Shown: positions 3,207 to 40,383 of the stretch, in pieces | How the letters are laid out: every line of letters starts with the position of its first letter | Numbering within the stretch: the first letter of the stretch is position 1 | Assembly (NCBI GenBank): GCA_024742735.1 | Contig: JANSXV010000004.1 | Location: 1 to 64,000 of the forward strand | Direction of reading: 5' to 3' | Source of the DNA: Alphaproteobacteria bacterium | GTDB lineage: Bacteria; Pseudomonadota; Alphaproteobacteria; Caulobacterales; Maricaulaceae | Length of the DNA: 64,000 nt | Notes under the pieces: model-generated | The model's database searches: none | Told to the model about the DNA's origin: nothing | Seen by the model: only the letters and a program-made list of their open reading frames with translations | Made by a program: the position numbers and the translations under genes

Positions 3207-5018
3207 ATGCATCACAGCTTCAATCTCGACGCGGAACTCGCCGCCGGCGTGGAAGGCGCCAAGCGCAAAGTCGAACGCGAGCGCGAGAACGCGACAGAAG
3301 CGCTGCGCAAGGTGCTGTCCGAGGCGCAAGCGGGAGCGGTCTCACCCAAGGCGATCGGCCTTGTGAAGCGCGCCGTCGGCATGATGGACAATGGCCGCGC
3401 AGCCGCCGCCAAGGCGGCCAAGCTCTGCCTGAAGGCGCTGGATATCGATTCTGACTTCGCGCTCGCCAATCACGCCATGGCGCTGTGCCTGGAGCGCCTC
3501 GGCCGGCTGTCTTCAGCGCTGAACTTCTATGAGCGCGCCTGGAAGCTGAACCCGAAGGATCCAGAGATCTATCTCAATCTGGGCATGCTCGCCTGGAAGC
3601 TGGAGATGATGGAGGCGGCCGAGAAGTTCCTGCGCCTGCATAACACGATGGATCCCCGGTCCATCGGCGGTATTTCGAATCTGGCGGGGCTGTTGCGGGA
3701 TCTGCAGAAGTTCGAGGACTCCATCGAATTGCTGCGCACGGCCATATACGCCAATCCGGACAGCCCGGACCTGTGGAACTCTCTGGGCACGACGCTTCTG
3801 GAGAGCGGCGACCCGCTTCAGGCGCTGACCTTTTATGAAGAGGCGCTGCGGCTGCAGGAGAACTTCGCGCGCGCCCACCATAACATGGCGTTCTGTTACG
3901 ACCTCACCGGCGACACCGACCGTGCGATCATGCACTTCCGCAAGGCGCTGACCCTGAACCCGAGCGAAGAAGACCGCGTGACCATGGAGCACGGCCTGTC
4001 CATGGCGCTTCTGAGCAAGGGCCAGCTTGCAGAAGGCTGGGAACTCTATGAGCGCCGGCTGGATCCGCACTACAAGAAGTCCGTCCACGTCATCATCGAG
4101 GCCCCTTACTGGTCCGGCGCCGATCGCGAGGAGGTGCGCGGCAAGCGCCTGCTCCTGGTCGGCGAGCAGGGCCTTGGCGACGAGGTGATGCACGCCGGCG
4201 ATCTGGAACAGGCGTTCGACCTCGTGGGCCCTGACGGCGCCGTCGCGCTCGTCTGCGAACGGCGCCTGACCGGCATCATGGAGCGCAGCTTTCCGAAGCT
4301 GGAGTATGTGGGCTTCCACTCGACCATCACGAAGGAAGGCCTGCACCTGCGCCACCTTCACGAGGCCGAACCGACCTTCAAACCCGATCTCTGGGCGCCG
4401 CTGGGCTCGCTCCAGCGCGCGCTCCACCCCACCCCGGAAAGCTTCGGGCCCGCAGGCGCCAGGGCCTATCTCACGCCGGACCCCGATCGCGTCGAGGCCT
4501 TGCGCGCCCAGATCGGTGCGCTGCCCGCCGGGCTGCGCGTGGGTATCGTCTGGAAGTCCAACCTGATGACGGGCAACCGGACGAAATACTTCTCGCCCTT
4601 CCACCTGTGGCGACCGGCCCTCCAGACGCCGGGCTGCACCTTCGTGTGCCTGCAATACGGTGACGTGGAGGACGAGATCGCCCAGTGCGAGCGCGATTTC
4701 GGCGTCACGATCCACCGCATCGAAGGCCTTGATCTGAAAGACGATCTGGAAGGCGTCGGCATCACCGGCTCGCTCATGGATGTGAGCGTGGGCCAGCACA
4801 ACACCTCGCTGGCTCTGGCCGCCGCCTATGGCGGCGAAACCTGGGTGATGGCGCCGGCGAAGAACCAGTGGACCGCCTTCGGCACCGACCGGCTGCCCTG
4901 GTCGCCGGGATCAACGCTGTTCGCTCCGGAAAAGTTCCGCGACTTCGCCGATCCGGTCGGGCGCATCGCCAGGGCGCTGCAGCAAAGGGCCGAAGAGCGC
5001 GACCGCGGCGCAGCCTGA
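3207..5018 (+). CDS. flmG: TPR/GT41-like flagellin glycosyltransferase FlmG
   Basis: This 603-residue soluble protein has tetratricopeptide repeats from about residue 40 to 280 (for example YERAWKLNPKDPEIYLNLGM and ALTFYEEALRLQ). A glycosyltransferase-like C-terminal half follows, with LLLVGEQGLGDEVMHAGDL near residue 312 and a sugar-nucleotide-type strand GLRVGIVWKS near 440. Size, domain order and position next to flbT-flaF-flagellin match Caulobacter FlmG, which O-glycosylates flagellin with a pseudaminic-type sugar. The transfer reaction is known for the family; the substrate here is inferred from context. The ATG at 3207 starts just before the first conserved helix. A CtrA-like box lies upstream. 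Confidence 0.88.
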   Translation: MHHSFNLDAELAAGVEGAKRKVERERENATEALRKVLSEAQAGAVSPKAIGLVKRAVGMMDNGRAAAAKAAKLCLKALDIDSDFALANHAMALCLERLGRLSSALNFYERAWKLNPKDPEIYLNLGMLAWKLEMMEAAEKFLRLHNTMDPRSIGGISNLAGLLRDLQKFEDSIELLRTAIYANPDSPDLWNSLGTTLLESGDPLQALTFYEEALRLQENFARAHHNMAFCYDLTGDTDRAIMHFRKALTLNPSEEDRVTMEHGLSMALLSKGQLAEGWELYERRLDPHYKKSVHVIIEAPYWSGADREEVRGKRLLLVGEQGLGDEVMHAGDLEQAFDLVGPDGAVALVCERRLTGIMERSFPKLEYVGFHSTITKEGLHLRHLHEAEPTFKPDLWAPLGSLQRALHPTPESFGPAGARAYLTPDPDRVEALRAQIGALPAGLRVGIVWKSNLMTGNRTKYFSPFHLWRPALQTPGCTFVCLQYGDVEDEIAQCERDFGVTIHRIEGLDLKDDLEGVGITGSLMDVSVGQHNTSLALAAAYGGETWVMAPAKNQWTAFGTDRLPWSPGSTLFAPEKFRDFADPVGRIARALQQRAEERDRGAA

Positions 5019-5097
5019 GAACAGCCCCGCCCCTAGGCGAACTCTCCTGTCCGCTTTAGTTTCCCGTCTGACGGGTACTGCAAGCACGGGTGAGCGC

Positions 5098-5943
5098 ATG
5101 CGCTTTGAAGGCACGAAAGACTATGTGGCGACCGATGAGCTGGCCGCCGCAGTGAACGCGGCGGTCACGCTGGAGCGGCCGCTCCTGGTCAAGGGCGAAC
5201 CGGGCACCGGCAAGACCGAGCTGGCCCGCCAGGTGGCCGGCGCCCTGGGCGCGCCGCTGCTGGAATGGCACATCAAGTCCACCACCAAGGCCCACCAGGG
5301 GCTGTACGAGTACGACGCCGTGGCCCGCCTGCGCGACAGCCAGCTCGGTGATGACCGGGTTCACGACGTCACCAACTACATCAAGAAGGGCAAGCTGTGG
5401 GAGGCCTTCACCCACGAGACCCGGCCGGTCCTTCTGATCGATGAAATCGACAAGGCCGATATCGAGTTCCCCAACGACCTCCTGCAGGAACTCGATAAGA
5501 TGGAATTCTACGTCTACGAGACAGGGGAGACGATCCGCGCCGAGGTGCGCCCCATCGTCATCATCACCTCCAACAACGAAAAGGAGCTGCCCGACGCCTT
5601 CCTGCGCCGGTGCTTCTTCCACTTCATCGCGTTTCCTGACGAAGACACGATGGAGAAAATTGTTCAGGTCCACTTCCCCGACCTGAAAGGCCGGCTCCTG
5701 TCCGAAGCGCTCAACGTCTTCTTCGAACTGCGCACCGTGCCCGGCCTGAAGAAAAAGCCCTCCACGAGCGAGCTGCTGGACTGGCTGAAACTCCTGCTGG
5801 CCGAAGACATCGACCCCTCCGTCCTGCGCGAACGCGACCCGCGCAAACTCATCCCGCCCATGCACGGCGCCCTCCTGAAGAACGAACAGGACGTGCAGCT
5901 GTTCGAACGCCTGGCGTTCATGTCACGGAGGGATGGGGGGTAG
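5098..5943 (+). CDS. MoxR-family AAA ATPase
   Basis: A 281-residue AAA+ ATPase with Walker A GEPGTGKTE (about residues 38-46), Walker B LLIDEIDKAD (about 116-125) and an arginine-finger region DAFLRRCFFH. MoxR ATPases work as chaperone-like remodelers, usually with a VWA-domain partner that recognises the target. The partner gene starts 3 nt after the stop, so the two form an operon. The target is unknown. The ATG at 5098 follows a weak GGGTGAG site. The protein is cytoplasmic, with no signal peptide or membrane segment. Confidence 0.93.
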   Translation: MRFEGTKDYVATDELAAAVNAAVTLERPLLVKGEPGTGKTELARQVAGALGAPLLEWHIKSTTKAHQGLYEYDAVARLRDSQLGDDRVHDVTNYIKKGKLWEAFTHETRPVLLIDEIDKADIEFPNDLLQELDKMEFYVYETGETIRAEVRPIVIITSNNEKELPDAFLRRCFFHFIAFPDEDTMEKIVQVHFPDLKGRLLSEALNVFFELRTVPGLKKKPSTSELLDWLKLLLAEDIDPSVLRERDPRKLIPPMHGALLKNEQDVQLFERLAFMSRRDGG

Positions 5944-5946
5944 GCG

Positions 5947-7131
5947 ATGACCCTCTTCCACCGCTTCTTCACCGGGCTTCGCGCCGCGAAAATTCCCGTC
6001 TCCACGCGGGAGTATCTGACGCTGCTGGAAGCGTTGGAGAAGGGGGCGATCGATCAGGAGATCGATAGTTTCTACGCGGTCAGCCGGGCGGCGCTGGTCA
6101 AGGACGAGAAGAATTTCGACAGGTTCGACAAGGTCTTCGCCCATTTCTTCGAAGGGGTCGAAGCGCTGGGCGAAATGTTCCAGGGCGAGGAGATCCCCGA
6201 GGACTGGCTTCGGGCGGAGCTGAGGCGCTACCTCTCCCAGGAGGAGATGGACGCCATGGAGGCGATGGACTTCGACGAGCTCATGGACACGCTCAAACAG
6301 CGCCTGGCCGAGCAGGAGAAGCGCCACGAGGGCGGGTCGAAATGGATCGGCACTGGCGGGACCAGCCCCTACGGCCATTCGGGCTGGAGCCCCAATGGCG
6401 TGCGCATCGGCGGCAAGTCCCAGAACAAGAAGGCCTCCAAGGTCTGGGAGGCGCGCAGGTTCAAGGACTATGACAATGAGCGCGAGCTGGGCACGCGCAA
6501 TCTGAAGGTCGCGCTTCGGCGCCTGCGCCGGTTCGCGCGCGACGGGGCGCAGGAGGAACTGGACCTCGACGACACGATCCGCGCCACCGCCCGCCAGGGC
6601 TATCTGGACGTGAAGATGCGCCCGGAGCGGCGCAACGCCATCAAGGTGCTGGTGTTCTTCGACGTGGGCGGGTCCATGGACCCTTATATCGAGCTGACGG
6701 AGCGCCTGTTCTCGGCCGCCTCCGGCGTCTTCAAGAATCTGGAGTATTTCTACTTCCACAACTGCCCCTATGAGGGCGTGTGGAAGTCCAATCTGCGCCG
6801 TCAGGCCGAGACCACGCCGCTGATGGACGTGCTGCACAAATATCCCAGCGACTACAAGGTGGTGATCGTCGGCGACGCGGCCATGGCGCCCACCGAAATC
6901 ACCCATCCCGGCGGCTCGGTGGAGCACTGGAACGAGGAGGCGGGCGGGGTCTGGCTGCGCCGGATCACCGCAACCTACCCCCACTTCGTCTGGCTCAATC
7001 CCACGCCGGAGAACTGGTGGCCGCACACCTATTCGGTCCAGTTGATCCGCGAAATCATCGGCCCGGACCGCATGTTCCCGCTGACGCTCGAGGGCGTCGA
7101 CAAGGCGATGAAAGAGCTTAGCAAAAGGTAG
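5947..7131 (+). CDS. VWA-domain protein, CoxE-like partner of the MoxR ATPase
   Basis: A 394-residue cytoplasmic protein with a helical N-terminal half and a C-terminal von Willebrand A domain. The metal-site motif DVGGSMD near residue 240 is a variant of DxSxS, and a later strand VVIVGDAAMAP is visible. This layout is the CoxE-like partner family of MoxR ATPases. It is translated 3 nt after the ATPase gene. Together they probably insert a cofactor into, or remodel, another complex (inference). The next gene is convergent. Confidence 0.9.
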   Translation: MTLFHRFFTGLRAAKIPVSTREYLTLLEALEKGAIDQEIDSFYAVSRAALVKDEKNFDRFDKVFAHFFEGVEALGEMFQGEEIPEDWLRAELRRYLSQEEMDAMEAMDFDELMDTLKQRLAEQEKRHEGGSKWIGTGGTSPYGHSGWSPNGVRIGGKSQNKKASKVWEARRFKDYDNERELGTRNLKVALRRLRRFARDGAQEELDLDDTIRATARQGYLDVKMRPERRNAIKVLVFFDVGGSMDPYIELTERLFSAASGVFKNLEYFYFHNCPYEGVWKSNLRRQAETTPLMDVLHKYPSDYKVVIVGDAAMAPTEITHPGGSVEHWNEEAGGVWLRRITATYPHFVWLNPTPENWWPHTYSVQLIREIIGPDRMFPLTLEGVDKAMKELSKR

Positions 7132-22060: not shown

Positions 22061-23461
22061 CTAGCCTGTCTCGCCGCGCAGCGTCTGGAGTACGTACTGG
22101 CCCTGGCGGTTCAGGCTGAACAGGACCGGCGCGCCGTCCGCGCCAGCCGCTTCAGCCAGCGACCGGGCCTGATCAAGCCCCTCCACCGCCGTCCAGGCGA
22201 TTTCCTCGACCACGTCGCCGACACGCACCTTGCCGGCGGCGTCGCTGGCGGCGTCCACCTCGGTGACCACAAGACCCTCCGCATCGGGATGGATCCGGTA
22301 CTGCCGGCGAAGGGCGTCGGTCAGCGGCGCCAGCGTCAGGCCGAACAGGGTGTGGGCGTTCGCGTCCGCGTCGTCCGGCCCGGCGCCGTCCGCGCCGGCC
22401 GGCGCGCGCGGGGCGCCCTCTTCTTCAAGCCGGGCGACCGTGACCTCAACCGTCACCGGCTCGCCCCGTCGGAAGACCTCCACCGTGACCGTGGCGCCCG
22501 GCTCGGTCTGCGCAACGATGCGCGGCAGGGCTCGGTCATCGGCCACGGGCCGGTCGCCGAAGGCCAGGATCACATCGCCGGTGCGCAGCCCGGAGTCCGA
22601 CGCTGGTCCTTCGGGATCGATGCGGGTGACGACCGCGCCGCGTGCGGCGGCCAGACCCATGGCCTGGGCCATGTCGAGAGTGACGGGCTGGACGTTGACG
22701 CCCAGCCAGCCGCGCCTTGTCTCGCCGAACTCGATGAGCTGATTGATGACCGGCTCGGCCACGGCGCTGGGCACGGAGAAGGAGATGCCCACACTGGCGC
22801 CGGTGGGCGAGAAGATCGCAGTGTTCACGCCGATCACCTCGCCGTCCATGTTGAACAGCGGGCCGCCGGAATTGCCGCGATTGATGGCCACGTCGGTCTG
22901 GATGTAGTCGTCATACCGGCCGCCTATCTCGCGGCCCTGGGCGCTGATCACGCCGGTGGTCAGCGATCCGCCCAGGCCGAACGGGTTGCCGATCGCCACA
23001 ACCCACTCGCCCACGCGCGCCGCGTCGGAATCGCCGAATCGCACGAAAGGCAAGGGCGCGCTGGCGTCCACGCGCAGCACGGCCAGGTCCGTCGCCGGAT
23101 CCCGGCCGACGATCTCAGCGGGAAGCACACGGCCGTCCTGGAGCACGACCTCCACTTCGTCGGCCTCGTCGATGACGTGGTTGTTCGTGACCACCAGCCC
23201 GTCGGGATCAATGATGAAGCCCGAGCCCAGCGAGCGCTCCACGCGCGGGCCGTCGCCCAGCATGTCGTTGAAACGCTCCAGCGGAGAGCCGGGCGGGAAG
23301 ACCGGCATGCCGTCCTCATCCCCGATCCGGTTGGCGGTCGCGATATTGACCACGGCCGGGCTCAGCGCCTCGTTCAGATCGACGAAGTCCTCGCGCGGCT
23401 GGGCGAGCGCGGTGCTTACGCTGGCGGCGGCGAGGAACAGGGCGGCGAACAGGACGCGCAT
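22061..23461 (-). CDS. DegP/HtrA-type periplasmic serine protease (Do family)
   Basis: A 466-residue periplasmic protease with a signal peptide (MRVLFAALFLAAASVSTALA). The trypsin-like domain carries the triad His95 (VTNNHVIDEA), Asp125 (DPATDLAVLR) and Ser198 (NRGNSGGPLFNMDG). Two PDZ domains follow, near 270-350 and 390-460. Such enzymes degrade or refold damaged envelope proteins. The ATG at 23461 gives the signal peptide; an upstream extension to 23524 is not supported. A GC-rich stem lies at its stop codon but has no T-tract. Confidence 0.95.
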   Translation of the reverse strand: MRVLFAALFLAAASVSTALAQPREDFVDLNEALSPAVVNIATANRIGDEDGMPVFPPGSPLERFNDMLGDGPRVERSLGSGFIIDPDGLVVTNNHVIDEADEVEVVLQDGRVLPAEIVGRDPATDLAVLRVDASAPLPFVRFGDSDAARVGEWVVAIGNPFGLGGSLTTGVISAQGREIGGRYDDYIQTDVAINRGNSGGPLFNMDGEVIGVNTAIFSPTGASVGISFSVPSAVAEPVINQLIEFGETRRGWLGVNVQPVTLDMAQAMGLAAARGAVVTRIDPEGPASDSGLRTGDVILAFGDRPVADDRALPRIVAQTEPGATVTVEVFRRGEPVTVEVTVARLEEEGAPRAPAGADGAGPDDADANAHTLFGLTLAPLTDALRRQYRIHPDAEGLVVTEVDAASDAAGKVRVGDVVEEIAWTAVEGLDQARSLAEAAGADGAPVLFSLNRQGQYVLQTLRGETG

Positions 23462-23562
23462 GAGCGGCTCCGCATTGTAAATCAGGCGTGCTCCGGACTT
23501 AAACCGGCGCCGGGACCCCTGCAAGCCGGGCCCGCTTACAACTCGGTGAGGTTCTGCGCCGC

Positions 23563-25002
23563 TCAGCCCAGATTGAGCTGGTAGCGCGCCTCGCGGACAA
23601 GGCCGCTCTCATCCTCCACGACGAGGCGGAGAGTCCAGCTGGACGAACCGGCGAAAGCCGCCGCCGGAATATCACCCAGCACGCCGCCTTCGGCCACGGC
23701 GCCGATATCCTCAACGGCGACGCTCCACTGGGCCGGCGTCTGGCCTGCGCCCAGCTCAAGCCGGGCCGAGGCGAGGTTGCTGGCCTGCGACAGACCGAAG
23801 ACGCGCACCGCCGGTGCGCCGTCCGCGCCGGCCACGACCGCCACGCTGTCGATGCGCGCTGTCGCGAACACCGCCTCGGCCTGGAGCGCGGCCGCGGCGT
23901 CCACGATGCCGTAGCCGGTGTACTGGTCCACGCCGGGAGAGCCCACGTCGCGCGCGCTGTTCAACAGGATCGTACGAAGCTCCGCCGCGCTGAGCTCGGG
24001 CCGGTGGGAGAGCACGAGGCTGGCGACCCCGGCCACGATCGGCGCGGAGAAGGATGTTCCGCTGGCCCGGTAATAGCGCCGGTCTTCGCCCACAAAGGCC
24101 GCGCCGGGCTCATACTCGACCCCGGCGATGTCGCGCATGGTGTCGGTGTACCGCGCGCGAAGGCTCAGAACATCCAGGCCCGGCGCGGCGATATCGATGG
24201 CCGGGCCCCAGTTGGAGAACACCGTGCGCGTGTCGTCGAAATCGGTGGAGGCCACCGTGATCACGGCCTCGGAGCCTGGAATGCCCCATTCCTCCACCGG
24301 CACGCCTTCATTGCCGGCCGCTGCGATCACCAGCACGCCGCGCGCGGCGGCGTACTCCAGCGCCTCGGTCTCGATCCGGGTCGTCTCCGGGCCGCCCACG
24401 GACATGTTGATGATCTGCGCGCCGTTATCGACGGCGTAATAGATCGCTTCGGCCAGATCGCTGGCGCGGGTATGGCCGAAATCATTGAGCGCCTTGACCA
24501 CCATGATCTGCGCATTGGGGTTGATGCCCCTTATGCCGTGACCATTGCCGGTCCAGCCCGCGATCAGCCCCGCTACGAAGGTGCCGTGACCGTCGCGATC
24601 CTGGGGGTTGTTGGTGTCGGCCATGAAATCCCAGCCGATGATGTCGTCCACGAAGCCGTTGCCGTCATCATCCACCCCGTTGTCGGCGATCTCTCCGGGA
24701 TTGGTCCACAGATTGTCCCAGTTGATGTCGGCATGGTGCCAGTCGAGTCCGGTGTCGATCACCGCGACGACGACAGGTTCGCCCGGGTCCGGCGCGATGG
24801 CGTAGGCGCCGCCCGGTTCATCGGTCAGCCCCACGCGCCGCGTCGCCCACTGGTCGGGATAGCTCTGCCCCCAGCTGCCCTCCCCGGCGAAGTAGGGGTC
24901 GATCGTGGGGTGGGACGCCGACGGGTGCGGCGCCGCTGACGGCGTCGCGGCAAGCGCCAGCGCACTCGCCAGGCTAACCGCTGTGATCGGTCTTGCGGTC
25001 AT
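23563..25002 (-). CDS. secreted subtilisin-like (S8) serine protease
   Basis: A 479-residue secreted protease with a signal peptide (about residues 1-24). The catalytic triad is Asp83 (VIDTGLD), His139 (DGHGTFVAG) and Ser317 (SGTSFSAPIVAG), with oxyanion Asn231 (AAAGNEG). The stretch DNGVDDDGNGFVDD is a likely calcium loop. A beta-rich C-terminal domain (about 385-479) follows. Its ATG overlaps the metalloprotease stop codon (ATGA), so it is the last gene of a four-gene operon. It may be anchored or secreted with its operon partners. Confidence 0.93.
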   Translation of the reverse strand: MTARPITAVSLASALALAATPSAAPHPSASHPTIDPYFAGEGSWGQSYPDQWATRRVGLTDEPGGAYAIAPDPGEPVVVAVIDTGLDWHHADINWDNLWTNPGEIADNGVDDDGNGFVDDIIGWDFMADTNNPQDRDGHGTFVAGLIAGWTGNGHGIRGINPNAQIMVVKALNDFGHTRASDLAEAIYYAVDNGAQIINMSVGGPETTRIETEALEYAAARGVLVIAAAGNEGVPVEEWGIPGSEAVITVASTDFDDTRTVFSNWGPAIDIAAPGLDVLSLRARYTDTMRDIAGVEYEPGAAFVGEDRRYYRASGTSFSAPIVAGVASLVLSHRPELSAAELRTILLNSARDVGSPGVDQYTGYGIVDAAAALQAEAVFATARIDSVAVVAGADGAPAVRVFGLSQASNLASARLELGAGQTPAQWSVAVEDIGAVAEGGVLGDIPAAAFAGSSSWTLRLVVEDESGLVREARYQLNLG

Positions 25003-27296
25003 GGCTGGACCTCCCCGCGGCGCGCCTGGACGGCGGGCGCTGCAACCAGGCTCAGCGAGATCGTCTGACCGGGCAAGTCGCCGCCTTCGGGCATCTCCGG
25101 CAGGCGCAGCCAGCCCAGCGGCGGCCCGGGCTGCTTGTCCCGGCAGGTATTGTCCTCCACGTACGCATCAAGACTGCCGACCATGCCCGTCAGGGCGCCG
25201 TCCCAGTCATAGCCGGCCTTCACGGTCCAATCGAGGCGGTAGCCATACCCGGTCAGATCCGCGCCCAGAGACAGGCCGGTCACGTCGATTTCATCTCCCT
25301 CGACCGCCAGAGCGGACAGCGCGGCCTGCTGTTCGTCGGTCAACGGCTCGTTGGTGATCAGCGTCGCGCTCTCACGCTGCACGGCCTCGACGTCGAGATA
25401 ATAGGCGTCCAGCGCATTCGCGCCGAGCCCGAGGCTCGCCACCGGCATCTCGATGACGCAGTCGCCATTGTCATCGGTGACGCATTGGCTCGGCTCGCGG
25501 TCATAGCCGCTGTCGTCGCGTTCGACGCCGGCCCCGGGCAACGCCGGCGCCGCGGTCTCCGGCGGATTCAGGCGGATCACCTGACCGGGCGTCTCCTGGC
25601 TCTCCACCGCACCGGTCGTGCTGTTCAGCACGTCGGCGCGCGCCTTCACGAAGACCGGAACGGTCACGTCGCGCGGATCATCGCCATCGTCCTCTTCAGG
25701 CGGGGCGTCGCCGGGATCATCGCCGTCAGTGGGCGTATCGCGCGGATCGTCATCATCCCCGCCGCTTTCCGGCAAGCCCGGCAGCCATGTGGGGTCATCA
25801 TCCAGACCGGGGATCCAGCCGGGGTTGAGCGGATCATCACCGCCTGGCGCATCGCGCGGATCGTCGCCGTCATCGCCGGGCGTCTGGCCGCCTCCGGGCG
25901 CATCGCGCGGATCGTCGCCGTCATCGCCGGGCGTCTGGCCGCCTCCGGGCGCATCGCGCGGGTCGTCGCCGTCATCACCGTCGCCGCCGCCGGGAGGAAC
26001 CGGCGTATCGCGCGGATCGTCGCCGTCGCCGCCACCCTCACCACCGCCGGGCGCAGGGGTGAGCGGAAGGTCTTCTCCACCCGTCGTGTCATATTCGCAG
26101 AAGGTCTGGCTGTCAGTGGTCACGCCCACGCTGATCAGCGCCTCGTCCACGGGATCGCCGACTGTCCCGGTGACCACCCGGTCGCGCGGGCAGTCGATGA
26201 GGGCGCGCTCCAGGCGGCGGATATCGTAGTCGATCTGGGCGGCGGCCAGCGCCTTCTCGCGCGGCTGGGCATTCGAAAGCCCGATCAGGCGGCGCTGTTC
26301 GCGTAGACGATTGAGCTGGCGCAGGATGCCTTCCTGATCGCAGACCGCAATCATATCGCCGGTGTCGCCGATGATCAGTGCGTAGTCCTGCATAAGCGGC
26401 GTCAACTCATCGCGATCCGGACAGCAATCGCACTCAAAGCCGGAGCGCGTCCGCAGCTGCTCCAAGACATTCGTGAACGGGAAGCCGTTATTGTCCGACA
26501 TCAGGTCGTGGTTATGGCCGTGCGCGGTCACCGAGACCGTTCTGTTCGGATTGTCGGGTGTGGGCGCGGCGACGTCCTCATAGGCGTCGTCAATGCCCAT
26601 GAGGTGACCGATCTCGTGGGCGGCCGGCGCCCGGCTGGTGTCGCCGCGATTGGCCCAGAAGCCGCGGCGGGGCGCTTCAGTCCCGTCGATCACATGGTCT
26701 GGATTGTCCCAGTCCGTCGGTACGTCGCGAGGGAGGTCCGGATTGCGGGTCTCAATGACATAGGACCGGAAGCGCGGCCCCATGATGCCGATCTGATGGT
26801 AGCCCGGCGTGCGTGGATCGTCGGCGCCTCGCACCCGGACATCGACATCGATCTGGATCGAGCAGCACGGGAAGTAGGCGCAGTTCTGGTCCACGCCGAA
26901 TTCGTTGGCGTATCGCGCCCAGTGGCTGCGGATATCATCGGAGGAAGCTTCAATATCTTCATCGCCGGTATTGCCGGGACGGCTGCGCACGCCTGCGGTC
27001 GTGGCCAGGATTTCGGCTTCAGACGCGTTGACGCCGTTCCAGATCCGCTCGGCGCGCGCTTCAAGCTCCCGCGCATAGTCAGACGTCGCCCTCTCGCTAT
27101 CCTCCGCGAAATCATGGGGCGGATCGCCGTCGTCAGGCGGGCGGATGTCGCTGGCGCGCGTGGTGAAGAACTCGATGGGCACGACCACCTTGATCTTGCA
27201 GTCATTCACCTGCTCGAAGCGGGTCTGGGCCTGAGCACCGCCCGCAAAAACGGTGGCTGCAGCAAGGCCGGACAGGAGCATGAGACGCGCGATCAC
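24999..27296 (-). CDS. secreted zincin-type metalloprotease with acidic repeats
   Basis: A 765-residue exported protein I cannot place in a named family. A signal peptide (about 1-23) is followed by a domain with the zinc motif HEIGHLMGIDD: His227, Glu228, His231, Gly234 and a third-ligand candidate Asp237. A possible Met-turn lies at HDLMSDN (Met266), and there are many cysteines. Residues about 417-543 are low-complexity DDPRD repeats. The C-terminal part (545-765) is beta-rich and proline-poor. Start is GTG at 27296, overlapping the upstream stop (GTGA). The metzincin reading is inference from motif order; peptidase activity is untested. Confidence 0.8.
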   Translation of the reverse strand: MIARLMLLSGLAAATVFAGGAQAQTRFEQVNDCKIKVVVPIEFFTTRASDIRPPDDGDPPHDFAEDSERATSDYARELEARAERIWNGVNASEAEILATTAGVRSRPGNTGDEDIEASSDDIRSHWARYANEFGVDQNCAYFPCCSIQIDVDVRVRGADDPRTPGYHQIGIMGPRFRSYVIETRNPDLPRDVPTDWDNPDHVIDGTEAPRRGFWANRGDTSRAPAAHEIGHLMGIDDAYEDVAAPTPDNPNRTVSVTAHGHNHDLMSDNNGFPFTNVLEQLRTRSGFECDCCPDRDELTPLMQDYALIIGDTGDMIAVCDQEGILRQLNRLREQRRLIGLSNAQPREKALAAAQIDYDIRRLERALIDCPRDRVVTGTVGDPVDEALISVGVTTDSQTFCEYDTTGGEDLPLTPAPGGGEGGGDGDDPRDTPVPPGGGDGDDGDDPRDAPGGGQTPGDDGDDPRDAPGGGQTPGDDGDDPRDAPGGDDPLNPGWIPGLDDDPTWLPGLPESGGDDDDPRDTPTDGDDPGDAPPEEDDGDDPRDVTVPVFVKARADVLNSTTGAVESQETPGQVIRLNPPETAAPALPGAGVERDDSGYDREPSQCVTDDNGDCVIEMPVASLGLGANALDAYYLDVEAVQRESATLITNEPLTDEQQAALSALAVEGDEIDVTGLSLGADLTGYGYRLDWTVKAGYDWDGALTGMVGSLDAYVEDNTCRDKQPGPPLGWLRLPEMPEGGDLPGQTISLSLVAAPAVQARRGEVQP
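25836..25976 (-). repeat. 51-bp tandem repeats in the metalloprotease gene
   Basis: About 2.8 nearly identical copies of a 51-bp unit encode DDGDDPRDAPGGGQTPG in frame (residues 441-487). The flanks (25668-26021) carry more degenerate DDPRD units. The near identity of the copies at DNA level points to recent slippage or recombination, so the repeat number may vary between strains. Confidence 0.85.
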
Positions 27297-27808
27297 GGCT
27301 GCTCCTCCTGCGGCAGGTCATAGACCCAGGGGTAGACCAGCGCGTTATAGTAAATGCGCCGCTCTTCCGGCAGTTGCCGGTTCACCGCGCGGACGATGTC
27401 ATCGAACGGCTCCAGCGGGCTGTTGATCGCAGTAACATAATGCGTACGCCCGTTCAGCCGCACCGCTATGGTCGCCTGATCGCCGCCGCCGATGCGGTAG
27501 TCGGCGTATTCCTCGTCCAGATCGAAGAATCCGTTCGCCTCGACCGCCTCGACGATCGCCGCCATCTGATCAGCACCCAGACTGCCGCGATAGGGACCGA
27601 ATTCAGGCCCGCCTTCATAGGTCCGGAAAGGTTTTGCGTAGACCGAGCCGTCCGCGTCGATCACCACGCCCTGCTCGTCCATGGGCTCGCCCAGATGGAC
27701 CGGGCGCGAGGACACCACGATGCGGAAGTCGTCCGGAACTTGCGCCCAGGCCGGCGCGGCCGCCGCGAAGGCGGCCAGCCAGACCAGGCCAGCGGCCAGC
27801 CGGAGCAT
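27293..27808 (-). CDS. small secreted protein, DUF6438-like
   Basis: A protein of 171 residues with a clear signal peptide (MLRLAAGLVWLAAFAAAAPA, cleavage after AWAQ). The body has a beta-rich pattern with DADGSVYAKPFRTYEGG, an acidic FDLDEEYADYRIGGGDQ and TIAVRLNGRTHYVT, which loosely resembles DUF6438 proteins. I chose the ATG at 27808; a GTG at 27826 is equally close to the upstream gene. It lies between the barrel protein and the metalloprotease and overlaps the latter by 4 nt, so it belongs to the same operon. Confidence 0.8.
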   Translation of the reverse strand: MLRLAAGLVWLAAFAAAAPAWAQVPDDFRIVVSSRPVHLGEPMDEQGVVIDADGSVYAKPFRTYEGGPEFGPYRGSLGADQMAAIVEAVEANGFFDLDEEYADYRIGGGDQATIAVRLNGRTHYVTAINSPLEPFDDIVRAVNRQLPEERRIYYNALVYPWVYDLPQEEQP

Positions 27809-27830
27809 CAAGCGGGGGCCGACCACCAGC

Positions 27831-29156
27831 CTAGAACCGCGCGTTCAGACCAAGACGCAGCCCGCCCACGACGCCGTCATCATTGGCGATCTGGGCCGGA
27901 CGGTCATCCACGAACAGATCGTCGCCGCTGGTCGGGTTGAAGAAGCCGCCCAGATCAGAGGCCTGCGTGGCGTGACCGGACACGTCCAGCGCGAGGCGGT
28001 CGGTCAGGCGGAACCTTGCGCCGACTTTGCCCTTGAAGCCCCAGGTCCCGCCGTCATCGCTCTGGCTGATCGTCGAGGTGAAGTTATTGTCCGGCCCGCA
28101 GGCGCCGCAGACATTCTCCTGGACCGAGGTGAAGTCGGTATTCTGGAGCCCGGCGATGCCGAACAGACCGCCATAGATCGCCACCCAGGGATTGATGTCG
28201 TGCTCCAGCACGCCGCCGAACCCGACAGAGTAGAAGTCCTGCTCAAGGCTGGCGGTCGTGTTCTGGAAAATGTCCGCGAAGGTCGGCGACTGCAGTTCGG
28301 TGCGCACCGACTGCTCCACACGGGTGTAGCCGAAGAAGACCGTCGGGCGCAGGCGCGTACGCTCGCCGAGCGGATAATCGCACGCGAAGCCGAATTTCGC
28401 ATTGAACAGGTCGACCTCACGCTCGAGCGCCGCCTCAAGCCCGGTATCGCCCAGAAACACACCTGTCGGCCCGCCGTCGAAGGGGCGGTCCTGGTAGGTG
28501 ATGGCCGTGTAAGTCATGGCGGTCGGGGAAACCGCGCCCACATCGCCTGCATCGCCATTGGCGACGGCGATGTCGAAGAAGGCGTAGTCGGCGAAGCCGA
28601 ACGGGCTGTTGAAAGCCCCGCTGAAGGACACGCCGCTCAATTCCACGCGGTCGCCGCCCTCGACCAGCGGGACCTCATCGGTTCCCGGGTCACCGGGAGG
28701 TCCGGTCAGCACCGTACCGGCGCCGAAATCGGGCAGATCCAGTGTCAGGTAATCCAGATTGATCCCGAAGATCGGGCCAGGAAGCGCGATGTCCGGCGTG
28801 CGGCCAGGGGGGTTGCGGCTGGGATAGGCCGTCCCACGGTCCAGGTCGATGACGAGGGTTTCACCCGGCCCGGCGGCGGCCGCCGGGATCACGATATCGG
28901 CCCCGCCCGGACTCCGGATCACGATCTCGCCGCGGCTGCCGCGATCGCCTGGCAACATGAAGATCAGGGCGCCGTCGTCATCCTCGTCTTCCTCTGCGGG
29001 CACTTCGCTCCCGTCTGGAAGCCTGAAGGAAATGCTCTGAACGGGAACCTCTTCGGCCCCCTCGCCCACCAGCACCGCGCGCTGGCCGTATACCGCCCAG
29101 GCGGCGGCGGTGATCATGAAAAACGCGGCGAATACGAAAATGATTGAACGCAGCAT
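27831..29156 (-). CDS. outer-membrane beta-barrel protein
   Basis: A 441-residue exported protein, first gene of a four-gene operon. It has an N-terminal signal segment (MLRSIIFVFAAFFMITAAAW), an extracellular or periplasmic acidic region (residues 50-140, with PAEEDEDDDGALIF), then alternating beta strands from about 200 to the end. It ends in an aromatic residue (GLRLGLNARF), the usual barrel C-terminus. A cysteine pair CGACG lies near 350. The ATG follows GGGGAGGGG, and a perfect CtrA box lies 16 nt upstream. It could be an anchor, exporter or substrate of its protease partners. Confidence 0.75.
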   Translation of the reverse strand: MLRSIIFVFAAFFMITAAAWAVYGQRAVLVGEGAEEVPVQSISFRLPDGSEVPAEEDEDDDGALIFMLPGDRGSRGEIVIRSPGGADIVIPAAAAGPGETLVIDLDRGTAYPSRNPPGRTPDIALPGPIFGINLDYLTLDLPDFGAGTVLTGPPGDPGTDEVPLVEGGDRVELSGVSFSGAFNSPFGFADYAFFDIAVANGDAGDVGAVSPTAMTYTAITYQDRPFDGGPTGVFLGDTGLEAALEREVDLFNAKFGFACDYPLGERTRLRPTVFFGYTRVEQSVRTELQSPTFADIFQNTTASLEQDFYSVGFGGVLEHDINPWVAIYGGLFGIAGLQNTDFTSVQENVCGACGPDNNFTSTISQSDDGGTWGFKGKVGARFRLTDRLALDVSGHATQASDLGGFFNPTSGDDLFVDDRPAQIANDDGVVGGLRLGLNARF

Positions 29157-29172
29157 AGGCCCCTCCCCGGAC

Positions 29173-29188
29173 TTAATGCTTCGTTAAC
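29173..29188. promoter_or_regulatory. perfect CtrA box before the barrel-protease operon
   Basis: TTAA-TGCTTCG-TTAAC matches the full CtrA consensus including the terminal C. It is 16 nt upstream of the barrel-protein ATG. A box this close to the start would more easily block than activate transcription unless the start point lies inside it. The rest of 29189-29344 shows no gene. Confidence 0.7.
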
Positions 29189-29344
29189 CATAGCACGAAT
29201 GATGAAATATGCCACGGCTCACGGGAATGTTCAGGCTATAACACCCTATAGGTGCGCCCTCTGTCGAAAGTTGGGAGAATCATGAAGTTTCCGCCTTTTG
29301 CAGCAGACGGCGCGTAAGCAGGAGGCTGCGGGCTCCCGCGCACG

Positions 29345-29376
29345 AAAACGGCCGGACCCCGCCAGGACCCGGCCGT
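29345..29376 (-). terminator. probable terminator after hflC
   Basis: Arms ACGGCCGG and CCGGCCGT form an 8-bp stem over a 13-nt loop, followed on the minus strand by TTTTCG. It lies 28 nt after the hflC stop codon. Confidence 0.7.
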
Positions 29377-29404
29377 CATCGGTGCGTCGTTCAGGCGTGG
29401 CCGC

Positions 29405-30298
29405 CTAGTTGTTCGCCGACGATCCGTCTCTGAAACGGAAATACTCGAAGAACTCCGAGTCCGGCGGCACCACGATGGGCGTACCGTCGCGCAACGCGGT
29501 CTCATAGGCGATCATGGAGCGGTAGAAGGCGAAGAACTCCGGATCCTGGCCATAGGCGGCCGCGTAGATCCGGTTGCGCTGAGCGTCACCGTCACCGCGG
29601 ATGCGATCGGCTTCGGCGCGAGCGTTGGCCAGGATCACGGTGGCTTCACGGTCGGCGCCGGCGCGGATTTCCCGAGCCTGCTCCTCCCCTTCCGCACGGA
29701 TCAGCGAGGCCTGCTGTTCACGTTCGGACCGCATGCGCTGGAAGACGCGCTCCTCCACATCGTCCGGCAGGTCCGCGCGCAGGATGCGCACGTCGATGAC
29801 TTCAATGCCGAGATCGGCGCGCAGAACCGCCGAGGCGACCGCCGCCTCGACCCGGTCCATGAGCGCGGCGCGCTGGCCGGAGATCACTTCCTGGGACGGG
29901 ATCGAGCCGACCACAGCGCGCAGCGCGTCTTCGGTGATGGTCGCCAGGCGCAACTGGGCGCCGGACTCGGTGCGCACGGTCTGGAAAAAGCGCAGCGGAT
30001 CGATGACCCGGTAGCGCAGGAAAGCGTCGACCTCCAGACGCTCCTGGTCTCCGGCCTGGATCTGGCGCGGCGTCATGTCGAACTCGACATTGCGCTTGTC
30101 GAAATGCAGCACCTCTTCCCAAGGCAGTTTGAACTGCAGGCCGGGATCTTCATCGCCGACCTCGTTGATCACGCGGACCGGATCGCCGAAGCGCAGCACG
30201 AGGGCGGACTGGGTTTCGCTGACCGTGTAGGTGGCCGTAGCGACGCCGACGGCGGCGGCGCCGATCAGCAGCACAGCCAGGATCGTAAGAATTCTCAT
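29405..30298 (-). CDS. hflC: HflC, SPFH-domain membrane protein
   Basis: A 297-residue inner-membrane protein with one N-terminal helix (residues 3-23) and a band-7/SPFH domain (LVLRFGDPVRVI ... PGLQFKLPW), then a long coiled coil rich in Glu, Arg and Ala. With HflK it forms a large ring that encloses and regulates the FtsH protease. It is the second gene of the hflKC pair and starts 3 nt after hflK stops. The length is normal. Confidence 0.95.
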   Translation of the reverse strand: MRILTILAVLLIGAAAVGVATATYTVSETQSALVLRFGDPVRVINEVGDEDPGLQFKLPWEEVLHFDKRNVEFDMTPRQIQAGDQERLEVDAFLRYRVIDPLRFFQTVRTESGAQLRLATITEDALRAVVGSIPSQEVISGQRAALMDRVEAAVASAVLRADLGIEVIDVRILRADLPDDVEERVFQRMRSEREQQASLIRAEGEEQAREIRAGADREATVILANARAEADRIRGDGDAQRNRIYAAAYGQDPEFFAFYRSMIAYETALRDGTPIVVPPDSEFFEYFRFRDGSSANN

Positions 30299-30301
30299 GA
30301 T

Positions 30302-31468
30302 TTAGCCTCCCTGACCGGAGCCGGCGGCGTCGCTGCGCGTCCCGCGCGTCTGACCGAGACGGTCAAGCGGCAGATACGGCACGGCGCCATTGCCTTGCTG
30401 GTCGAGAATGATGAGTTCGGACCGGCCGAGCACCCGTTCCATGGTCTCCAGGAACATGCGCTGGCGGGTCACGTCCGGCGCCTGGGCGTATTCGGCATAG
30501 ATCGCGTTGAAGCGGTCGGCCTGACCTTCGGCTTCTGCGATCACCTGGTCGCGATAACCGCGCGCCTCTTCAAGCAGCCGCACCGCGTCACCACGCGCTT
30601 CGGGAACGACCCGGTTGGCGTAGGCGGTGGCCTGAAGCTGCAGGCGCTCGGCGTCCTGGCCTGCGGCGATGACGTCCTGGAAGGCCGCGATCACGTCCGG
30701 CGGCGGCGAAGCCTCTTGCAGCTGCACCCCGACGATGCGGATGCCCGCTTCATAGCTGTCCAGGGTGGACTGGATGATGTCCTCGGCGCGCTGGGCGACC
30801 TCGCCCCGGCCCTGACCGATGATCGGCTGCAGGTCGGAGGTGCCGACCACCTCGCGCATGGCGCTTTCGGCGACGGCGCGGACCATGGACTGCTGGTCGC
30901 GCACGTTGAACAGATAGGCGCGCACATTGGCCGGATCGACCTGCCACTGCACCGTGAAGGAGATGTCGGCGATATTCTCGTCGCGCGTCACCATCAGGGC
31001 TTCCTGGGCCGTATTGCCGATGGTCACCGAGCGGATATTGGTCACATCCTCGATGCGTACGGTCTCGATCGGGGTGGGCAGCTTGAACTGCAGACCCGCG
31101 CCGGTGGTGCGGGCGTATTCTCCGAAGCGCAGGACGACGCCGGCTTCACCGGGGCCGACCTGATAGACCGAGGCGATGCCCAGAAGCACCAGCGCGCCGA
31201 GGCCGACCACCGCGCCGATGGCGCCGCCGCCCTTGCCGCCCTTGCCCTTGCCGCCGCCGGAACCGTTGTTTCCGCCGCCTCTGCCGCCGAGCCAGGCCTG
31301 GAAGCGGCGCACCAGCTCTTCAAGGTCGGGCTCGTTTCCGCCGCCACCCGGGCCGCGGCCGCCGCCGGGCCGATTGGGGCCGTTGCCCCAGGGATTGTTG
31401 TTATTGTTGTTCGAGCCGCCGCCCGAGCCCCAGGGCCCGCCGCCGCCTGAATTGTCATTCCAGGGCAT
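30302..31468 (-). CDS. hflK: HflK, SPFH-domain membrane protein
   Basis: A 388-residue protein beginning MPWNDNSGGGGPWGSGGG: a Gly/Asn-rich cytoplasmic segment, one membrane helix near residues 82-102, and an SPFH domain (VLRFGEYARTTGAGLQFKLP) followed by a coiled coil. HflK pairs with HflC to modulate FtsH. The ATG at 31468 matches the usual HflK start; an extension to 31513 is unsupported. The low-complexity N-terminus is common in this family. Confidence 0.95.
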   Translation of the reverse strand: MPWNDNSGGGGPWGSGGGSNNNNNNPWGNGPNRPGGGRGPGGGGNEPDLEELVRRFQAWLGGRGGGNNGSGGGKGKGGKGGGAIGAVVGLGALVLLGIASVYQVGPGEAGVVLRFGEYARTTGAGLQFKLPTPIETVRIEDVTNIRSVTIGNTAQEALMVTRDENIADISFTVQWQVDPANVRAYLFNVRDQQSMVRAVAESAMREVVGTSDLQPIIGQGRGEVAQRAEDIIQSTLDSYEAGIRIVGVQLQEASPPPDVIAAFQDVIAAGQDAERLQLQATAYANRVVPEARGDAVRLLEEARGYRDQVIAEAEGQADRFNAIYAEYAQAPDVTRQRMFLETMERVLGRSELIILDQQGNGAVPYLPLDRLGQTRGTRSDAAGSGQGG

Positions 31469-31562
31469 GTATCTCCCCGCTCCTGTCGTGGATTTGATCC
31501 GCGTATATATCAACCGTGTATGTGGACGGTGAGGCCGTCCGGTTCAAGCAAAACCGGGCGTG

Positions 31563-40319: not shown

Positions 40320-40368
40320 GACGCGCTCATCGCTTCAATGACTGACCTCATGGATGGCTTAAGCTCTG

Positions 40369-40383
40369 TTAACAGGGACTTAA
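40369..40383. promoter_or_regulatory. perfect CtrA box between fliX and flgI
   Basis: TTAA-CAGGGAC-TTAA matches the CtrA consensus exactly. Another TTAA lies 10 bp to the left (40359-40362), at N6 spacing. Its position suits activation of fliX, a CtrA-controlled class II flagellar gene in Caulobacter. Confidence 0.75.

Follow-up and report, generated by a model that had tools for sequence, protein, structure and literature searches.

Subtilase prodomains serve as a model of enzyme folding directed by a segment that does not remain in the finished protein. The locus described here raises the question of what serves a subtilase encoded with no prodomain of its own. Within the window, the whole stretch of 64,000 nucleotides that was analyzed, four genes at 23563-29156 are confirmed as an operon, all on the minus strand. 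P0001 (partner A; 27831-29156, 441 aa) has a signal-peptide-like start, an N-terminal domain, and a C-terminal OMP_b-brl match. P0002 (27293-27826, 177 aa from a GTG start) is a small, putatively secreted protein. P0003 (partner B; 24999-27296, 765 aa) comprises a zincin-motif front, an FCEY motif, an acidic DDPRD linker, a pre-S8 region, and a short tail. P0004 (23563-25002, 479 aa) is the S8 subtilase, with a signal-peptide-like start and a C-terminal beta domain. The first-pass annotation had described the same make-up (a barrel protein, a small protein, a metalloprotease with DDPRD repeats, and an S8 protease), and our data agree, with a thin profile margin for the barrel. P0002 and P0003 overlap at GTGA, and P0003 and P0004 overlap at ATGA. 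The gap of about 22 nt previously given after P0001 holds if P0002 starts at a possible later ATG at 27808, whereas with the GTG start it shrinks to 4 nt. On one side of the operon lie two minus-strand genes, 30302-31513 and 29405-30298, which from their translations, matches, and order we take to be hflK and hflC. On the other is a degP-type Do serine endopeptidase gene (22061-23461, minus strand; TIGR02037, 426.4 bits, cut-off 416.2). Between hflC and degP, a placement absent from the first-pass annotation, the four genes form an accessory insertion. Their GC3 (0.79-0.85) is close to that of the flanks (0.83-0.88), so composition gives no clear signal of foreign origin.

P0004 passes Pfam Peptidase_S8 (178.5 bits, cut-off 21.8) and has the catalytic triad Asp83-His139-Ser317, which together identify it as an S8 subtilase. 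A T7SS mycosin identity was rejected, the TIGR03921 score of 205.9 bits being below the cut-off of 278.75. PADLOC places P0004 under its general "subtilase" model and weakly under IetS, an anti-phage reading, and returns no match for P0001-P0003. Approximately 34 residues, the signal-peptide-like stretch included, precede the module, which starts at DPYF, and Pfam reveals no I9 prodomain in cis. By sequence, P0004 is a member of a distinct S8 family, undescribed and scattered across bacteria, with 37 related loci in Alpha- and Gammaproteobacteria, Myxococcota, and Planctomycetota. Named isolates in which a related locus occurs include Hyphomonas atlantica and Mangrovimicrobium sediminis. Thirty-nine loci, picked from 63 by reading of the match table, were scored, and the family counts leave out L134 and L154, which have weak S8 scores. 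The Asp and His of the triad are conserved in 45 of 45 rows and the Ser in 44, the exception being a contig-edge fragment. The S8 module closes a long fused protein in 27 of the 45 family proteins and stands separate in 18, P0004 included. Most split S8s that were compared have little but a signal-peptide-like start ahead of the module. The exceptions are the S8s of L103 and L105 and the L112 and L113 reverse copies, in which 58-83 residues precede the module, partly through start-codon choice; the two reverse copies, labelled split, are very divergent, and one is a contig-edge fragment.

The S8 protein was the way in to these related loci; queries with the P0001-P0003 sequences themselves were almost without result. 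The 14 other genomes of the genus searched yielded no close relative of these four genes. P0003 was found in its own genome only among 137 family genomes, had two other matches, weak and unconvincing, in 398 phylum genomes, and had none in genome contigs, viral contigs, plasmids, or phages, some of these searches being sensitive to close relatives only. Within the family, P0002 was likewise found in its own genome only. Of its seven weak matches in the class, the four inspected (L052, L053, L055, and L056) lie in loci that look unrelated. P0001 gave two weak matches in 61 genomes, both in unrelated surroundings; one of the two is in the genus (G011, 28% over 124 residues). Plasmids contained no S8 match at E ≤ 1e-30.

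The relationship that bears most directly on the missing prodomain lies near the end of P0003. Residues 546-725 (25122-25661, minus strand) share homology with the stretch that immediately precedes the S8 module in the fused relatives. With residues 545-765 as the query, the fused protein of L120 is matched at E = 5.6e-13, the alignment stopping 2 aa short of the S8 module, and that of L106 at E = 1.2e-11, stopping at the module itself. None of 200 shuffles of the query gave any match at E ≤ 10. A pairwise round recovers 14 of the 41 other B sequences at E ≤ 1e-3, and after five rounds the pre-S8 profile reaches 35 of 42, P0003 included; this set of 42 (14 separate, 28 fused) takes in L134 and one antisense frame (L113, 7205-9814). 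The region was found in 0 of 24 control loci, and it is not detectable in the B protein of the two Hyphomonas split loci or in either L101 fusion. At the sequence level, P0003 546-725 and P0004 match adjacent parts of single fused proteins, which argues that P0003 and P0004 very probably interact. The first-pass annotation missed this point: the S8 protein is the end of a fused precursor that has become a gene product of its own, and the corresponding piece stayed with P0003.

What that piece might do was approached through an AlphaFold model of the fused relative of L110 (657 aa; mean pLDDT 73.2, pTM 0.76), for which 20 of the 26 listed fused stretches served as the alignment. Block means reach 88-94 over residues 141-210, where strands and helices follow the order b-b-a-b-b-a-b. 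In a Foldseek search with this model, zymogens are among the top matches. The product of TMt and length drops from 297 for PvSUB1 with its prodomain (4tr2_A) to 245 when the catalytic domain stands alone (8coz_A); for pro-subtilisin E (3whi_A) it is 273, and for a mature subtilisin (1sbh) it is 223. These larger values with zymogens suggest that the extra L110 domain superposes in place; read from scores rather than coordinates, it appears to lie on the zymogen prodomain. For the last 70-80 residues before S8 in the fused relative, the model thus predicts a prodomain-like domain that sits where pro-subtilisins carry theirs, and the second half of the P0003 region corresponds to this domain. 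Given the homology of P0003 to the pre-S8 stretch and this placement in the fused model, P0003, a putative metalloprotease, probably carries a prodomain-type partner of P0004 in trans.

Alternatively, the pre-S8 region may be a mere docking or display spacer, partner B and the S8 protein forming a stable surface complex in which the latter folds unaided and works as a protease. Sequence searches are consistent with such a spacer. Pfam at E ≤ 5 detects no I9 in the stretches of five relatives or the window's, a PDB profile search found nothing relevant, and hhalign against four known prodomains aligned the end motif only, with a probability of 3.7%. The zincin-type tails gave nothing against these prodomains, and the P0003 tail carries no recognizable I9 sequence. 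Moreover, the first portion of the region (about residues 546-640) is distinct from the prodomain-like part. The zincin-type tails do match a prodomain-like profile built from 14 of 23 fused stretches (hhalign E = 1.3e-5, probability 80%). A profile of 14 fused prodomain-like stretches picks up only 3 of 14 split-locus B sequences (L118, L115, and L099). P0003 escaped it in a search of 563 reading frames from the window, so the window copy has diverged and may have lost the fold. Against a spacer stand the high-confidence domain of the fused model, with its zymogen-like placement, and the fact that most split S8s are nearly devoid of any other N-terminal extension. We consider the spacer unlikely, though a serious competitor.

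The front of P0003 is consistent with a second protease. It contains the zinc motif HExxHxxGxxD as HEIGHLMGIDD (residues 227-237; 26586-26618, minus strand), with Met266 further on, the combination of HExxHxxGxxD/H and a later Met that marks zincins of the metzincin type. The His, Glu, His, and Asp of the motif and the Met are invariant in all four zincin-type sequences, and the motif Gly is Gln in L099. Around the motif, snapalysin (1c7k, E = 0.48) and karilysin (E = 2.3) match weakly. Unlike metzincins such as snapalysin, P0003 has no Pfam family match, many Cys residues, the S8-related tail, and an acidic Gly/Pro/Asp linker with seven DDPRD-type repeats (about residues 405-545; 25662-26084, minus strand). 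The zincin-type model is poor (pLDDT 53.6), and a fold search with it gave no match. The top PDB matches of the zincin profile, staphylococcal enterotoxin B (E = 0.0024) and CLEC4M (E = 0.0032), fall outside the zinc motif and were taken as chance. Across the family the fronts vary: 32 front regions, one an antisense frame, fall into 20 clusters when the linker is removed where a WCxY-type motif is found; an earlier clustering probably linked sequences via shared linkers. The L106 front looked caspase-like by eye and found no support in Pfam at E ≤ 5.

The P0001 N-terminal domain (about residues 15-118; 28803-29114) recurs in 21 of the 37 family loci and in 0 of the 24 control loci; a P0001-type partner was undetected in the other 16. 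Because the partner profile was trained on neighbors from the same loci, the independent evidence is the pairwise round, which already recovered 10 neighbors, and the control loci. The barrel is another matter. P0001 passes OMP_b-brl narrowly (29.4 bits, cut-off 28.7), and among partner relatives the family is sub-threshold in L102 (23.3 bits) and absent in the others scanned. The L109 partner passes an outer-membrane family in Pfam, those of L097 and L098 match no Pfam family, that of L120 has an Ig-like domain in place of the barrel, and the match of G970 to P0001 is confined to residues 2-110. What follows the recurrent N-terminal domain differs between partners; in two of them (P0001 and the L109 partner), the C-terminal part passes an outer-membrane family. 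The barrel had been proposed as anchor or exporter; with a recurrent N-terminal domain, a P0001-type anchor is possible on sequence grounds, whereas an exporter role is not supported, the barrel not being constant. P0002 scores 16 bits against DUF6438 and its relatives 20.4-23.2, all below the cut-off of 30. Its kin occur in exactly three related loci, those with a zincin-type B. The same four-gene order is present in two other loci (L097 and L098, the latter being G970), in keeping with the earlier claim of a single unit. Absence of synteny in relatives, named beforehand as grounds for rejecting that unit, is not what we observe, since the S8 protein, the preceding protein, and a P0001-type partner recur jointly.

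We favor, at slightly better than an even chance, a reading in which the cassette is an accessory, putatively exported, split form of a modular precursor (variable front, linker, pre-S8 region, S8) with an envelope partner, the P0003 tail serving the S8 protein in trans. P0003 and P0004 would be made at matched dose because their genes overlap, and each would reach the envelope by its own Sec signals. There, the P0003 tail would bind S8 in trans, both helping it to fold and inhibiting it, and a cut of the tail near CRDKQ would free both the subtilase and the metalloprotease front. P0001 may use its recurrent N-terminal domain to retain both proteins at the outer membrane, and P0002 may be a dedicated partner of the metalloprotease, either an inhibitor or a chaperone. 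A bolder form, which we put forward tentatively and at somewhat less than even chance, holds that a subtilase folding-and-inhibition prodomain has moved to the C-terminus of a metalloprotease-type enzyme, such that, at the cell surface, each of two exported protease zymogens licenses the other in trans. The arrangement would then be one variant of an undescribed but widespread module whose fronts are interchangeable.

This split arrangement shares with I9-prodomain subtilases (pro-subtilisin E, pro-Tk-subtilisin) the catalytic module and the triad; in the fused relative, a prodomain-like domain is also predicted at the corresponding position. It differs in that the window's S8 lacks a cis prodomain and the matching region is the C-terminus of a putative protease from an overlapping upstream gene. 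Plasmodium SUB1 has a stand-alone, propeptide-like inhibitor, SUB1-ProM, whose separate gene lies next to subtilase genes (PMC6993865). SUB1-ProM, however, is eukaryotic and SUB1 has its own propeptide, whereas the unit in P0003 is attached to a metalloprotease-like front and would take the place of a cis prodomain. In Clostridium CspB, the prodomain chaperones and inhibits, and works in trans when co-expressed (PMC3567191). That trans action was observed and its separation was experimental; here, it is proposed from sequence and model, and the separation is natural. If true, a natural split with the piece on another protease would allow the trans reaction to be examined without artificial constructs and would hint at how two proteases stay silent until meeting outside the cytoplasm. 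The locus also leads to an uncharacterized family in several phyla, the B proteins of scanned members being nearly devoid of Pfam matches.

A plainer reading is an ordinary nutritional set, in which two secreted proteases and an outer-membrane protein are co-transcribed by chance and share no mechanism. Secreted S8 proteases are common, and occurrence is sporadic, with a full-length S8 relative of at least 50% identity in 4 of 398 order genomes, its own included. Joint occurrence and fusion nevertheless recur across phyla, and the control loci contain neither the partner domain nor the pre-S8 region, making this reading improbable.

The first-pass annotation had favored CtrA-timed surface proteolysis in the cell cycle, with the barrel as exporter or anchor; we regard this as very improbable, given the inconstant barrel, five related operons with no full box upstream, occurrence of the cassette outside dimorphic alphaproteobacteria, and a box that overlaps the probable -10/+1. 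The box itself stands as described: TTAA-N7-TTAAC (TTAATGCTTCGTTAAC; in full, TTAA-N7-TTAACCAT) lies at 29173-29188 on the plus strand, 16 nt from the P0001 ATG. Two boxes occur in the window as compared to 0.01 expected per dinucleotide-shuffled window, and when the mononucleotides of the 248-nt intergenic stretch were shuffled 20,000 times, a box arose in 4 cases. The genome has 8 distinct sites (12 strand matches) versus 5 strand matches for the reversed pattern, so some genomic sites may be chance. Three of the seven other distinct boxes precede flagellar genes (flgI, flgK, and flgBC), and CtrA is encoded in the genome, with 84% identity to the C. crescentus protein. The pattern matches the ChIP-seq consensus of Hyphomonas neptunium (PMC7200025). 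By eye, a weak sigma70-like promoter may be present at 29187-29215 on the minus strand (GTGGCA at 29215-29210, 17 nt, TATGGT at 29192-29187; 8 of 12 matches), a candidate below the threshold of the promoter scan, which listed none here. Its predicted +1, near 29180, falls within the box, and this overlap with the likely -10/+1 fits a repressor better than an activator. Cell-cycle timing is a guess; with the box and CtrA both present, as in a CtrA regulon, CtrA control of the operon is plausible, and the box position suggests repression.

The minus-strand gene order is hflK, hflC, P0001 (barrel protein), P0002 (small secreted protein), P0003 (zinc-motif protein), P0004 (S8 subtilase) and degP. 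P0002 overlaps P0003 at GTGA and P0003 overlaps P0004 at ATGA, as the first-pass annotation had it; the gap of about 22 nt that it placed after P0001 holds for one choice of P0002 start and is otherwise 4 nt. degP comes straight after hflC in 10 of the genus's 14 other genomes, with 156-358 nt between match ends; in three, hflC was not found just upstream of degP and other genes occupy that place, and in one the contig ends at the site. The cassette is an accessory insertion between hflC and degP. Six of those 10 genomes (L009, L011-L014, L016) have a short frame between the two genes, presumably DUF2065-like, which was not seen in window 23461-29405, where the cassette sits. Inspection by eye shows a CTTGNCG-like stretch, followed some 16 nt later by a GTTAAG-like one, recurring ahead of degP; this arrangement is seemingly kept in the window. 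Neither P0002 nor P0003 has a match among the other 136 family genomes searched. Within the genus, P0001 has one weak match (G011, 28% over 124 residues), and the best P0004 match shows 37% identity over part of its length only.

Among 398 genomes of the order, a full-length S8 protein with 51-55% identity occurs in three besides our own. One of them, G970 (locus L098), a Parvularculaceae MAG, has all four genes in unchanged order, giving the synteny in relatives that the first annotation asked for; the two Hyphomonas genomes, G959 and G1082, encode the S8 protein along with a P0001 relative and a protein of 1375-1399 aa. In a sample of 372 genomes of the class, the family was found in 3, our own among them. 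A genome-contig scan with an alignment of the S8 N-terminus gave 63 loci. Thirty-nine were scored, and the family is present in 37 of them, with 44 S8 proteins; the remaining 24, whose S8 proteins score lower against the family profile (best E 1.9e-70), served as controls. In one Scalindua contig (L101), the S8-family modules at 517-2877 and 4807-6693 are nearly identical and differ in N-terminal length. Searches of titles and abstract beginnings, mostly of open-access papers, found no description of this system under DUF6438, under trans or separate prodomains, or under gene sets combining S8 with a barrel or with CtrA.

About 445 residues long, the S8 module is C-terminal, with at most 4 residues after it in 43 of 44 proteins. 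It is fused to a long N-terminal part in 27 of 45 S8 rows and separate in 18, the window included. Separate S8 proteins begin, by eye, with their own signal-peptide-like stretch, so the split would hardly be a frameshift artefact. Explaining the fused/split label on the S8 tree takes 6 changes, versus about 14 when it is shuffled, and splitting may have had a single origin.

Residues 545-765 of P0003 match the part preceding S8 in fused relatives (L120, E 5.6e-13; L106, E 1.2e-11), and the alignments end 2 and 0 residues, respectively, before the S8 module; shuffled versions gave any hit in 0 of 200 trials. On these alignments, P0003 is the front half of a precursor of the fused-relative type. 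A profile grown from its tail reaches 35 of 42 B sequences (the proteins or N-terminal parts preceding S8) in five rounds, own included; the pairwise round alone passes 14 of the 41 others. The DDPRD-type linker also occurs in a fusion, L104, and 16 of 42 B sequences, including one antisense frame, carry a WCxY-type motif, versus 24 of 840 shuffled ones. Upstream of this motif, clustering of 32 front sequences gave 20 clusters. The zincin-type front groups the window with L097, L098 and L099, and another cluster holds five gammaproteobacterial proteins, with a TonB plug by Pfam in both that were scanned (L108, L119). Across 20 N-terminal parts at E <= 0.01, Pfam gave the L119 plug, one sub-threshold coiled-coil match and nothing else. 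The front of one fused S8 (L106:49-870) looked caspase-like by eye (GHG, DTCFGG), and Pfam gave no support. Divergent pairs of S8-family fusions occur in gammaproteobacterial MAGs (L108, L119, L129, L131 and partly L130), the larger member having a plug-like front of TonB receptors (Pfam in L108, L119); in L108, the pair is followed by an M48-TPR protein and a Wzi-like capsule protein.

An AlphaFold model of the L110 fusion, built with an alignment of 20 of 26 fused stretches, has a confident domain at residues 141-210, right before S8 (block means 88-94), whose strand and helix order we take to fit subtilisin prodomains. Zymogens rank high in Foldseek searches with this model, and pro-forms score higher than the same or similar mature enzymes, by about 50 units of length-weighted TM-score, a surplus hard to obtain unless the extra domain occupies the zymogen position. 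Sequence methods did not see an I9 prodomain. In hhalign, the zincin-type tails, the group to which P0003 belongs, match a profile of the prodomain-like part from 14 of 23 fused stretches (E 1.3e-5, 80% probability); in split loci, a plain HMM search with such a profile recovered only 3 of the 14 B sequences and did not find P0003. By these comparisons, the window copy of the prodomain-like part is diverged. The model of the fused relative is supportive, but given the missing I9 signal and this divergence, we infer with moderate confidence that the P0003 tail acts as a prodomain in trans on P0004.

The N-terminal domain of P0001 was turned into a profile whose training set came from neighbours in these same loci, 10 of them already gained in the pairwise round. 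It finds 21 proteins in the 2184 frames of the 39 loci, and no protein in the 1269 frames of the 24 control loci. All 21 lie near an S8 gene, either adjacent to it or, where B intervenes, at the head of the gene run that they share; such a partner is missing from 16 of 37 family loci. The remainder of these proteins is variable. Among 19 partner-type proteins scanned with Pfam, two pass an outer-membrane family: P0001 reaches OMP_b-brl, and the L109 partner Legionella_OMP (42.7 bits, cut-off 25.4). The L102 partner is sub-threshold for OMP_b-brl, the L120 partner passes for an Ig-like domain, weak peptidoglycan-binding matches in three others stay under cut-off, and the G970 partner has no match. 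The barrel had been proposed as anchor or exporter; with a recurrent N-terminal domain and a C-terminal part that differs, P0001-type partners fit the role of adaptor or anchor better than that of exporter. A G970-type partner gene with RHS repeats and without the N-terminal domain lies at L099:11366-12973. Relatives of P0002 are confined to L097, L098 and L099, which are also the three related loci whose B is of the zincin type, and so P0002 may be a partner of the P0003 metalloprotease front. A genus relative without the cassette has a clear DUF6438 match (L059, G014:C1:62699-63004, 63.6 bits).

The perfect TTAA-N7-TTAAC box reported before P0001 was confirmed, 16 nt ahead of its ATG. A study of Hyphomonas neptunium gives this sequence as the CtrA ChIP consensus (PMC7200025). 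The genome encodes CtrA, with 84% identity to the C. crescentus protein. In five related operons, the 300 nt ahead of the first gene contain no full box. By eye, the P0001 box overlaps a weak promoter-like pair, GTGGCA-17-TATGGT; a promoter scan listed none there at its threshold. CtrA activators typically sit near -35, a position that would put +1 at or inside P0001, making repression likelier than activation at this box. The genome has 8 distinct box sites; besides the P0001 box, three of them stand some 50-300 nt ahead of flgI, flgK and flgBC; a second perfect box in the window, at 40368-40383, lies upstream of the gene for the P-ring protein FlgI.
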